DNA from: Sporocytophaga myxococcoides DSM 11118
GTDB taxonomy: Bacteria > Bacteroidota > Bacteroidia > Cytophagales > Cytophagaceae
DNA: 64,000 nucleotides
NCBI RefSeq assembly: GCF_000426725.1
Contig: NZ_KE384560.1
Location: forward strand, 952,960-1,016,959
Direction: 5' to 3'
Shown here one piece after another: positions 11,391 to 39,829 of this stretch (position 1 is its first letter; the number at the start of each line of letters is the position of its first letter). A program made the position numbers and the translations under genes. The notes beneath the pieces are model-generated. The model was not told the DNA's origin, did not search any database, and was given only the letters and a program-made list of their open reading frames with translations.

Positions 11391-11546
11391 ATGGACTTTC
11401 TAAGAGACCTCTTAAACTCTCAAACTGCCGGAGATTCATTTTTTTCTTATGCCTCATTTTATATTTTTTTATTGATTTTTGTTCCGGTTACATTCATTCT
11501 AATAGTTTTCATCGACTATTTCATTTCAAAGGTTTTAAAAAAATAG
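11391..11546 (+). CDS. Small predicted membrane protein (51 aa)
   Basis: An ATG-started ORF of 51 residues, starting MDFLRDLLNSQTAGDSFF. It has a single strongly hydrophobic helix (about residues 23-44) and a basic end (SKVLKK), the pattern of a one-pass membrane peptide with a cytoplasmic positive tail. It starts 5 nt after the nested inverted repeat. I do not recognise a family. The coherent membrane topology and clean start support translation, but the length leaves doubt. Confidence 0.4.
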   Translation: MDFLRDLLNSQTAGDSFFSYASFYIFLLIFVPVTFILIVFIDYFISKVLKK

Positions 11547-11566: not shown

Positions 11567-11598
11567 TTTGCTTTCTTTATAAGAACAAATTAAATTTG
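11567..11598 (+). promoter_or_regulatory. Promoter of the pheA leader
   Basis: A -33 TTTG (11567-11570) and a perfect -7 TAAATTTG (11591-11598) are separated by 20 nt, matching the Bacteroidota consensus in both parts. The predicted transcription start, near 11602, falls 2 nt before the leader-peptide ATG. Confidence 0.7.
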
Positions 11599-11603
11599 AA
11601 AGT

Positions 11604-11654
11604 ATGGTCCGAGGTTTAATGTTATTTGCATTTTACTATTTCTATCAGTCCTAA
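11604..11654 (+). CDS. Phe/Tyr-rich leader peptide of the pheA attenuator
   Basis: A 16-codon ORF encodes MVRGLMLFAFYYFYQS, then TAA. Six of its last nine residues are Phe or Tyr (FAFYYFY). This resembles pheL-type leaders, where a ribosome stalled for lack of charged tRNA lets an antiterminator form. The promoter -7 box ends 5 nt before the ATG, so the mRNA is nearly leaderless. An internal ATG at 11619 could also start an 11-residue version (MLFAFYYFYQS). The peptide itself probably has no function beyond sensing. Confidence 0.7.
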   Translation: MVRGLMLFAFYYFYQS

Positions 11655-11684
11655 TAGGAGGGATCAGAATTGCTATTGTTGATG

Positions 11685-11707
11685 GTCCCGTTAGGGACTT
11701 TTTTTTT
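11685..11707 (+). terminator. Attenuator terminator upstream of pheA
   Basis: The stem GTCCC / GGGAC with a GTTA loop is followed by nine T. It lies between the leader peptide and pheA, 20 nt before the pheA start, so it acts on pheA rather than on an upstream gene. Confidence 0.8.
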
Positions 11708-11727
11708 ATATATGGTTTAAACAGAGT

Positions 11728-12576
11728 ATGGTAAAAGTTGCAATACAAGGTGGCAGAGCATCATTTCATGAGATAGCGGCTCGAAATTATTTTAAAGATG
11801 ATGTGGAGATGATAGAATGTGCCTCTTTCCCTATCTTATGTGAGACTTTAAAAAAGGAAGAAGTTGATTATGCGGTAATGGCAATTGAAAACTCAATTGC
11901 AGGAAGCATTCTGCCCAATTATGCTCTATTGCAGAAATTTGATTTTTTAATAATCGGGGAGATTTATCTAAGGATAGAACAAAATCTGATGGCCTTGCCT
12001 GGCACTACCATTGATAAAGTTGAAAAGGCCAGATCTCATTATATGGCATTGCTTCAATGCCAGGACTTTCTTCAGAAATACCCTCATATTAAACTGGAAG
12101 AATATCATGATACCGCTGATAGTGCTCGAGATATCAGATTAAATGGGGAGAAGAATGTTGCTGCTATTGCCGGAAGGTACGCTGCAGAACTGTATAATCT
12201 GGATATTCTGGCGGAAAGCATTGAAACAGAGAAGAAGAATTATACAAGATTTTTGATTCTTTCCAGAGATAAAAGATTTAAAACTGAAAATAAGAATAAA
12301 GCAACCATTAGCTTTCATCTTCCGAATAGGGTAGGAGCTTTGGCAGATGTACTAAGGGTCATAGTTGAAAATAATATTAACCTAACCAAAATTCAATCTC
12401 TGCCTATTATTGGGAGACCAAATGAATACACATTTTATGTAGACTGTGAATTCTTCAATTATGAAGATTTCAAAAAGTCAATCGAAATAAAAAACATTGT
12501 AGAAAATCTCAGGATACTGGGAGAGTATAGAAAAGGAGAAACTATTCATGATTATACCAAAAGCAGACAGGCTTAA
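11728..12576 (+). CDS. pheA: Prephenate dehydratase
   Basis: Converts prephenate to phenylpyruvate in phenylalanine synthesis. The 282 residues hold a dehydratase domain (about 1-180) with AIENSIAGSI and the catalytic-region KKNYTRFLIL, then an ACT regulatory domain (about 195-275) with NRVGALADVL and KIQSLPI. These correspond to the GALV and ESRP motifs that bind phenylalanine in the family, so feedback inhibition is likely. No chorismate mutase domain is fused. It overlaps the downstream aminotransferase by 29 nt and is preceded by the Phe/Tyr attenuator. Confidence 0.95.
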   Translation: MVKVAIQGGRASFHEIAARNYFKDDVEMIECASFPILCETLKKEEVDYAVMAIENSIAGSILPNYALLQKFDFLIIGEIYLRIEQNLMALPGTTIDKVEKARSHYMALLQCQDFLQKYPHIKLEEYHDTADSARDIRLNGEKNVAAIAGRYAAELYNLDILAESIETEKKNYTRFLILSRDKRFKTENKNKATISFHLPNRVGALADVLRVIVENNINLTKIQSLPIIGRPNEYTFYVDCEFFNYEDFKKSIEIKNIVENLRILGEYRKGETIHDYTKSRQA

Positions 12577-13726
12577 TCTTGTAAAAGAATATTATTTCGT
12601 AAGGAAATTAGAAGAAATCGCCAAACTCAATAAAGAGGGCAAAAATGTAATCAATTTTGGAATCGGCAGTCCTGATCTTGCACCTTCGAGGGAAACTGTT
12701 CAGGCAATAGTTGCCACTGCAGAAAGGGATAATACACATGGATATCAGCCTTACAGAGGGATTCCCGAATTCAGACAAAAAATTGTGGAATGGTATAAAA
12801 AGACTTACAAAGTAGATCTTAATCCAAATGATGAAGTATTGCCATTGCTTGGCTCCAAAGAAGGGATTTTGCATCTTACAATGGCATTTTTAAATCCTGG
12901 AGAAGAAGTATTGGTGCCAAACCCGGGCTATCCTGGTTATTCATCCCTAACAATGCTTTCAGGAGGTACAATTCGTTATTATGATCTTAAGGAAGAGAAT
13001 AACTGGTTTCCAGATTTTGATGCATTAAAAAAGGCTAACCTATCCAAAGTTAAAATTATGTGGGTGAATTATCCCCATATGCCAACCGGGACGGTAGCTA
13101 ATAAGGATATGCTGAAAAAGCTTATCGACTTTGCAAAAGAGAAGAAGATTCTGATCTGTTATGATAATCCATATAGTCTTGTACTGAATAAAGAAGAACC
13201 ATTCAGTATTTTGCAGATAGAAGGAGCAAAGGAAGTAGCAGTAGAACTTAATTCTTTCAGTAAATCTCATAATATGGCTGGTTGGAGAGTTGGAATGATG
13301 TTGGGGAAAAAGGAATATCTAGATGCTGCTTTAGCAATTAAAAGTAATATCGACTCAGGTATGTTTCTTGGTATTCAGCAAGCTGCTATGAAAGCTTTGG
13401 ATAATGATGCAGCTTGGCATGCAAGAAGAAATGACGTTTACAGAGAAAGAAGAGACTGGGTTTATAAAATTCTGGATTTGCTCAATTTCGAATACAGCAA
13501 AGATCAGGTAGGTTTATTTATCTGGGCAAAACCAAAAGATCCTATAGCTATTCCTGATATTGCAGCATTTGTGGATCAGATTCTGTATTCTTCTTATGTA
13601 TTCTTTACACCTGGAGAAATATTCGGTTCTAATGGAAAGAACTTCTTGAGACTATCTTTATGCGTGCCAGCTGAAAGAATGAAAGAAGCTTATGAAAGAT
13701 TGGAAAAAGTAATGACAAAAGCTTAG
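12548..13726 (+). CDS. PLP-dependent aminotransferase, probably aromatic
   Basis: Fold-type I class I/II aminotransferase of 392 residues. The PLP lysine is Lys239 in SFSKSHNMAGWRVG, and the pyridoxal-phosphate pocket motifs NYPHMPTGTV and YDNPYS are intact. It overlaps pheA by 29 nt, so it is translationally coupled and probably does the last step to phenylalanine and perhaps tyrosine, or amination of prephenate. Sequence resembles the LL-diaminopimelate-aminotransferase-like group, so that substrate cannot be excluded. The gene context and leader favour aromatic substrates (inference). A bidirectional terminator follows. Confidence 0.85.
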   Translation: MIIPKADRLNLVKEYYFVRKLEEIAKLNKEGKNVINFGIGSPDLAPSRETVQAIVATAERDNTHGYQPYRGIPEFRQKIVEWYKKTYKVDLNPNDEVLPLLGSKEGILHLTMAFLNPGEEVLVPNPGYPGYSSLTMLSGGTIRYYDLKEENNWFPDFDALKKANLSKVKIMWVNYPHMPTGTVANKDMLKKLIDFAKEKKILICYDNPYSLVLNKEEPFSILQIEGAKEVAVELNSFSKSHNMAGWRVGMMLGKKEYLDAALAIKSNIDSGMFLGIQQAAMKALDNDAAWHARRNDVYRERRDWVYKILDLLNFEYSKDQVGLFIWAKPKDPIAIPDIAAFVDQILYSSYVFFTPGEIFGSNGKNFLRLSLCVPAERMKEAYERLEKVMTKA

Positions 13727-13748: not shown

Positions 13749-13790
13749 AAAGCGGCTCCCTTTATTAGAAAGGAGCCGCTTTTATTTTAT
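13749..13790. terminator. Bidirectional terminator between the aminotransferase and MFS genes
   Basis: A GC-rich stem AAAGCGGCTC / GAGCCGCTTT is extended inward by CTTT / AAAG with one bulged C. T-rich tracts lie on both sides, serving the two convergent genes. Confidence 0.85.
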
Positions 13791-39682: not shown

Positions 39683-39683
39683 G

Positions 39684-39768
39684 CAGAGAGAGAGGGATTC
39701 GAACCCCCGGACCTGTTACAGTCAACGGTTTTCAAGACCGCCGCATTCGACCGCTCTGCCATCTCTCT
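39684..39768 (-). tRNA. tRNA-Ser(TGA)
   Basis: The minus strand reads as an 85-nt tRNA. The acceptor arm AGAGAGA / TCTCTCT plus discriminator G encloses a D arm (GCAGAGCGGTCGAATGC), the anticodon loop CTTGAAA with anticodon TGA, a long variable arm typical of Ser, and a T arm with GGTTCGAATCC. CCA is not fully encoded. Confidence 0.92.
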
Positions 39769-39829
39769 GTGATTTGGACTGCAAAGATAGATAAAATGAT
39801 ATTGTGTCCAAATAATTCAAGTAATTTTT

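Follow-up and report, generated by a model that had tools for sequence, protein, structure and literature searches.

A Phe/Tyr-rich leader peptide and a putative transcription attenuator upstream of pheA in Sporocytophaga myxococcoides and other Bacteroidota

In the window analyzed here, a 64,000-nt stretch of the Sporocytophaga myxococcoides DSM 11118 genome, pheA is followed by an overlapping aminotransferase gene and preceded by a short open reading frame (ORF) and an intrinsic terminator (Table 1). The encoded PheA has PRK11898 as its best NCBIfam match, at 199.6 bits and thus below the cut-off of 219, and the operon likely ends, judging from the DNA, at a GC-rich hairpin behind the aminotransferase gene. 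An original prediction made from the letters alone had placed at this site a Phe/Tyr leader-peptide attenuator with a 16-codon leader, a nine-T terminator 20 nt before pheA and an exact repeat of ATGGTCC. These elements read from the sequence as claimed, with the repeat at 11604-11610 and 11682-11688 and 20 nt between the last T (11707) and the pheA ATG (11728), and the terminator between the leader ORF and pheA was also picked up by a terminator scan. When folded alone, the pairing of segments 2 and 3 (2:3) reached -11.1 kcal/mol and that of segments 3 and 4 (3:4) -10.0 kcal/mol. The leader start at 11604 is favored because its length and FYQS tail match those of Cyclobacteriaceae leaders by eye, while codon 6 (ATG 11619) may be an alternative start.

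Table 1. Coordinates of the features at the pheA locus, in positions of the window.
Feature	Position	Strand	Remarks
Bacteroidota-type promoter	11567..11598	+	TTTG 11567-11570, 20-nt spacer, TAAATTTG 11591-11598; transcription start predicted at about 11603
Leader peptide ORF, MVRGLMLFAFYYFYQS and stop	11604..11654	+	16 codons; in-frame alternative start 11619 (MLFAFYYFYQS and stop)
Aromatic codon run F A F Y Y F Y, regulatory (codons 8-14)	11625..11645	+	Sequence; comparison with pheA loci
Putative segment 1, TGGTCC	11605..11610	+	Could pair with 11661-11666; in MFE fold
Segment 2, GGGATCA, antiterminator 5' arm	11660..11666	+	14 nt past last aromatic codon
Segment 3, TGGTCCC	11683..11689	+	Common to antiterminator and terminator
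Segment 4, GGGACT	11694..11699	+	Pairs with segment 3
Intrinsic terminator, stem 3:4 (GGTCCC GTTA GGGACT) and nine T (11699-11707)	11684..11707	+	Terminator scan; -10.0 kcal/mol
pheA, prephenate dehydratase with ACT domain	11728..12576	+	PF00800 198.3 bits; PF01842 ACT 35.5 bits
Class I/II aminotransferase, second operon gene, overlaps pheA end	12548..13726	+	PF00155 221.5 bits
GC-rich hairpin between convergent aminotransferase and transporter genes	13750..13781	.	Read by eye

The consensus promoter that had been proposed is present as TTTG-N20-TAAATTTG, but such a match by itself is at chance level: the bipartite pattern, counted as TTTG-N19..21-TAnnTTTG, occurs three times in the window against 2.15 expected. 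An E. coli-type promoter scan of the window did not list it. One of the three matches, an exact TTTG-N19-TAnnTTTG at 39782-39812 on the minus strand, lies 5' of a tRNA-Ser(TGA) gene (39683-39768, minus strand). Passages of a Flavobacterium psychrophilum transcriptome paper assign the TAnnTTTG box of sigma-A to positions -12 to -5 (PMC9723704), and with this position the transcript start at our locus is predicted at 11603. The leader AUG at 11604 would then be at +2 (that of L013, a locus from another genus of the same family, at +1), so that the leader mRNA would be effectively leaderless if 11604 is used. Of 101 loci, 41 have an exact TAnnTTTG in the 90 nt preceding the leader start, and the median 5' UTR in those 41 was 14 nt. 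Leaderless mRNAs make up just 5.5% in F. psychrophilum according to the same passages (PMC9723704), which counts against either translation from 11604 or the predicted start of transcription.

A detector requiring at least six Phe, Tyr or Trp codons within nine codons of a short ORF, followed within 150 nt by a T-tailed hairpin, was applied to the 300 nt 5' of pheA at 186 loci (L005-L190; 182 distinct upstream strings). These loci were picked mostly by similarity to the PheA of the window and include some genomes more than once and a few PheA fragments (such as L020 and L024). The comparison strongly supported the attenuator, with 103 of the 186 loci (100 of the 182 distinct strings) positive and none of 8095 overlapping control tiles from elsewhere in L005-L150. 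Dinucleotide shuffles gave one positive in 3720, and on the window the detector fired in one of 834 tiles, the attenuator site itself. The bulk folding stability of the whole region was not unusual (z -0.92). Removal of identical leader-terminator strings left 100 leaders for further analysis.

Those 100 leaders contain 485 Phe, 339 Tyr and 28 Trp residues. Tyr accompanies Phe in 99 of them; none is without Phe and one is without Tyr. Between close leader pairs, 65 synonymous changes and 91 interchanges among Phe, Tyr and Trp were counted within the run versus 8 changes from an aromatic to another residue, in pairs that are non-independent and with a detector that itself demands aromatic codons. 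The mixture of codons had been taken to mean that both amino acids are sensed, a suggestion that these comparisons bear out at the level of sequence. The leaders are thus short ORFs rich in codons for the amino acids that the operon makes. Among the 51 positive loci from named records, 44 have a DAHP-synthase/chorismate mutase gene that follows pheA in the same orientation; 38 of these also have an aminotransferase gene and 27 a detectable tyrA. The other seven are L025 and L026 (Sporocytophaga, 3.8 kb of downstream sequence) and L033, L071, L074, L089 and L100 (less than 2.7 kb). Among the 29 detector-negative named loci, four (L053, L092, L093 and L097) carry the DAHP-synthase/chorismate mutase gene, and three of these have aromatic leaders by a relaxed test and L097 by eye; the L053 hairpin was scored in one of the runs only.

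The operon of Sporocytophaga is the odd one, since tyrA (G000:C20:47364-47660) and the DAHP-synthase/chorismate mutase gene (G000:C19:701641-702372; domains confirmed for both) lie elsewhere in the genome and in many relatives beside pheA. We infer that it was reduced from a larger operon. In the version of the window the putative sensor is kept where the operon is split. No strict leader was found at the tyrA, the DAHP synthase/chorismate mutase gene or a second DAHP-synthase-family gene of this genome (L191-L193). Ten relaxed aromatic ORFs in these three loci were considered and rejected; just one of them, an ORF of L192 on the plus strand and so in the orientation opposite to that of the gene, has a terminator-like hairpin no more than 180 nt away.

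Among named genomes, the closest are two Sporocytophaga metagenome-assembled genomes (MAGs), with PheA 95 and 98% identical. The element is present in all four Sporocytophaga genomes compared, with segments 2-4 identical and substitutions confined to the promoter, leader codons, spacer and loop, including one Tyr codon replaced by a Phe codon in L008. In the family of the window, four of 18 genomes pass the strict detector, all of them Sporocytophaga; L013 has MFSAIHPYFFFYHGSAR and a terminator, failing the strict threshold and passing the relaxed one. An evenly spread draw of 198 genomes from the phylum contained 45 genomes of the same class with a PheA match, of which 42 were examined, three with weak matches (E 1e-20 to 1e-30) being left out, and 38 of the 42 were positive. 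One of the negatives, G046 (L114), has an aromatic leader by the relaxed test and, by eye, a T-tailed hairpin before pheA that escaped the detector. Among genomes of other classes, 4 of 26 examined were positive. A draw from the order yielded PheA matches in 88 of 118 genomes, and 12 of 33 examined were positive. Of the loci from named records, 51 of 80 were positive, including records from Cyclobacteriaceae, Solitalea, Ohtaekwangia, Chryseolinea, Chitinophagales, one Ignavibacteriae MAG (L103), and Wenyingzhuangia and Ochrovirga, which we take to be Flavobacteriaceae. The pheA records from Draconibacterium, Maribellus, Mariniphaga and Prolixibacteraceae were negative with the detector.

Pairing of segments 2, 3 and 4 was assessed in the 100 leaders. 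The gap behind the aromatic run (about 35-80 nt, the only region in which segment 2 was sought) had a mean best complement score of 19.3 against its own segment 3 versus 9.4 when the gaps were shuffled, and 75 of 100 loci reached p <= 0.02. With segment 3 taken from loci that have a different one, the score was 13.4, and a locus' own segment exceeded the 90th percentile in 79 of 100. All three segments co-vary, as in GGGACTT/AAGTCCC/GGGACTT and AGGATT/AATCCT/AGGATT (segments 2/3/4), and likewise in GAGGCTTT/AAAGCCTC/GAGGCTTT, CGAGACCT/AGGTCTCG/CGGGACTT and GGGGCCT/GGGCCCC/GAGGCCC. Complementarity was the criterion for picking segment 2, and the stem that for picking the terminator, so the listed positions pair by construction; the evidence for segment pairing is the shuffle and swap controls. 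The mutually exclusive antiterminator thereby has phylogenetic support, and comparison with relatives, proposed at the outset as a check, found both the aromatic codons conserved upstream of pheA and the co-variation of segments 2-4. A MAFFT alignment of 53 of 66 non-redundant stretches (A1) was rejected as a basis for pair counts: gap lengths differ and segment 2 is therefore misplaced in it. The leaders of L151 and L153 (MNTITQNTCFCFFFYFYGKWE and MTNILNNTCFCFFFYFYAKVR) mix Cys with aromatic codons and have another segment 3 core (GGAGTTCT).

A 70S ribosome with a codon in the A site protects approximately 10 nt beyond it, by E. coli toeprint geometry. Segment 2 starts at a median of 10 nt after the last aromatic codon (IQR 9-11, SD 3.0; 100 leaders), which is about the edge of a ribosome stalled at that codon. 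Its distance from the stop codon is far more variable (SD 13.8); the stop codon lies before segment 2 in 15 of 100 leaders, after it in 58 and no more than 9 nt from its start in the other 27.

The effect of ribosome position was modelled by folding with this footprint imposed at 90 loci, those of the 100 in which segment 2 was neither short nor non-significant. Before segment 4 was made, the mean probability of 2:3 was 0.94-0.97 with the ribosome six to one codons short of the last aromatic one, 0.83 at the last aromatic codon, and 0.38, 0.07 and 0.00 one, two and three codons on. In the window it was at least 0.99 through Q15, then dropped to 0.17 at S16 and to 0.00 at the stop codon, in agreement with the earlier claim that the stop codon is placed so that a ribosome there covers segment 2. 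Once segment 4 was included, 2:3 kept 0.76-0.99 with F8, F10, Y11 or Y12 in the A site, and equilibrium favored the terminator with F13 (0.90) or Y14 (0.65) there; in six modelled relatives the terminator was favored for nearly every ribosome position. Ribosome position thus selects the structure in the model solely in the state before segment 4 is made. Since equilibrium often favors the terminator despite a stalled ribosome, antitermination would depend on segment 2 being the first to capture segment 3, that is, on kinetic trapping.

The same model departs from the simplest scheme in two respects. Without a ribosome, the probability of 2:3 in the window was 0.98 before segment 4 and 0.81 after it, and over the 90 loci it averaged 0.74 and fell below 0.3 in just 19%, so that termination as the default without translation is unexplained in most loci. 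With a ribosome at the stop codon, the probability was below 0.3 in 67% of 89 loci and segment 2 was free in the rest; approximately one third of loci therefore misfit the picture of a ribosome parked at the stop. Folding of the region, another check proposed at the outset, gave a divided result: 2:3 forms and is lost with a ribosome at the stop, but without a ribosome the antiterminator is favored rather than termination.

Of the three alternative pairings first suggested (1:2, 2:3 and 3:4), the last two are backed by co-variation while the first is weak. In the window, 1:2 comprises 6 bp including one G-U (p 0.043 versus shuffles), and it is predicted only before segment 3 emerges (probability 0.68-0.84 to position 11684 and 0.00 at 11690). 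In relatives, a stem of the start region pairing downstream of segment 2 instead was found in 34 of 100 at p <= 0.05. A role for segment 1 in the window is accordingly not well supported, the modelled hairpin being weak and marginal. Some Cyclobacteriaceae show, by eye, a local CCC hairpin past the last aromatic codon and ahead of segment 2; that such a hairpin generally serves as segment 1 was rejected (2 of 100 at p <= 0.05).

We consider it about 90% probable, from sequence comparison and folding models, that the region is a ribosome-mediated transcription attenuator through which pheA and the aminotransferase gene behind it respond to shortage of Phe or Tyr. The leader ORF, the aromatic run, the co-varying segments 2-4, the terminator and the spacing of segment 2 are on this footing established as sequence features, and the steps that would connect them are as follows. 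Transcription would start near 11603 and a ribosome would start on the AUG at the 5' end of the RNA. When charged tRNA-Phe or tRNA-Tyr is scarce, the ribosome would stall within codons 8-14 and leave segment 2 free to capture segment 3, and RNA polymerase would read through this antiterminator into pheA. When both tRNAs are plentiful, the ribosome would reach the stop codon and cover segment 2, segment 3 would pair with segment 4, and transcription would end at the nine T (11699-11707). Since the run interleaves Phe with Tyr codons, shortage of either should relieve termination (an OR gate).

The geometry shows only that a ribosome detained within the run would cause antitermination, whatever detains it. 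Nascent-peptide arrest, or a stall on the aromatic peptide induced by a drug or metabolite, might therefore drive the 2:3/3:4 switch in place of tRNA charging, and the FYQS tail common to Cyclobacteriaceae leaders would suit such an arrest. We regard this as quite improbable, given that an arrest peptide is expected to keep specific residues while here Phe and Tyr codons interchange in close leaders and the sequence outside the run varies, and given that the controlled genes make Phe and Tyr. That a ligand-binding riboswitch, a T-box or an RNA-binding protein acts on the 5' region appears highly improbable: passages of the F. psychrophilum paper do describe a structured pheA 5' element without an Rfam match (PMC9723704), but no riboswitch or T-box family reached its gathering score in the window, where the only RNA-family match was a tRNA, and what is conserved is codons and short alternative helices, with no aptamer-like core visible by eye in alignment A1. 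It is scarcely credible, finally, that the hairpin does no more than terminate transcription constitutively or mark a processing site, with an ORF that is open by chance in T-rich DNA; the AT-rich region, ordinary bulk folding and chance-level promoter pattern would fit this, and the comparative data contradict it, through the control tiles and shuffles as well as the co-variation and spacing of the segments over the phylum.

The attenuator would belong to a known mechanism, as classical leader-peptide attenuation is textbook knowledge, and probably represents a large family without an Rfam model of its own rather than a new mechanism. It resembles E. coli pheL-pheA (RF01859, Phe_leader) in its short aromatic leader ORF, overlapping alternative helices and terminator just before pheA, as well as in spacing, the GGGAGGC segment of the E. 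coli leader starting 8 nt after the last Phe codon by eye. Unlike the leaders described here, PheL has Phe but no Tyr, and in E. coli pheA encodes chorismate mutase fused to the dehydratase and is convergent with tyrA. The window scored 13.7 bits with RF01859, short of the gathering score of 55. Among 20 sources scanned with this model only L030 passed, at 55.2 (L034 reached 52.4), so that Rfam may already hold stray Bacteroidota members as Phe_leader; the match in L030, at L030:2833-2965, is a Cyclobacteriaceae leader. Multivalent leader attenuators such as thrL and ilvL likewise have one leader with codons for several amino acids, and differ in the amino acids and the operon.

The Bacteroid-trp motif precedes trp genes. 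It is tabulated in PMC2864571 (RF01692) as a cis-regulatory motif of Bacteroidetes, and so is likewise a predicted regulatory element of this group; it had no match in the window or its genome, and the window leader has no Trp codon. In Bacteroides thetaiotaomicron, short ORFs reminiscent of leader peptides are mentioned in passages of PMC7366714. Closest to the present case is the 2021 F. psychrophilum transcriptome paper, passages of which describe a structured element in the 5' region of pheA that is conserved across Flavobacteriaceae, together with strong indications that leader peptides attenuate amino-acid operons (PMC9723704). That element concerns the same gene in the same phylum and is probably also what L051 and L083 carry, the loci from Wenyingzhuangia and Ochrovirga; those passages give no Phe/Tyr codons, segment pairings or phylum-wide range (PMC9723704). 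The original prediction was aware of no such attenuation in the phylum, which in light of the F. psychrophilum and Bacteroid-trp passages is not blank; a Phe/Tyr leader in Bacteroidota is what we found no description of. No paper on it was found in the literature searched; Lopatovskaya et al. (2010), a comparative survey of attenuation cited in PMC4833913, could contain one. The main text of PMC2965389 mentions neither Bacteroidetes nor pheA.

A single sighting thus becomes a widespread attenuator class with an anatomy fit for codon-by-codon testing, and suggests how many Bacteroidota may tie synthesis of Phe and Tyr to tRNA charging. We put at even odds a broader reading, that one ancestral Phe-or-Tyr attenuator, far older than the genus, heads a combined Phe/Tyr operon in much of Bacteroidota and beyond (L103), with segment 2 kept immediately beyond the reach of a ribosome that stalls on the last aromatic codon, and free to lie inside the reading frame, and with a leaderless AUG in some lineages. 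If the mechanism works, the lead ribosome must stay close to RNA polymerase in bacteria reported, like F. psychrophilum (PMC9723704), to be without Shine-Dalgarno sequences, and the leader would for that reason be a ready-made reporter for transcription-translation coupling in them; were the ancestral reading true, such coupling would have to be tight there. Just 5' of the attenuator, at 11391-11546 on the plus strand, lies an ORF that encodes a small membrane protein of 51 aa (MDFLRDLLNSQTAGDSFFSYASFYIFLLIFVPVTFILIVFIDYFISKVLKK), and similar short hydrophobic ORFs are seen by eye 5' of pheA in L006-L008, L011-L014, L016 and L023.
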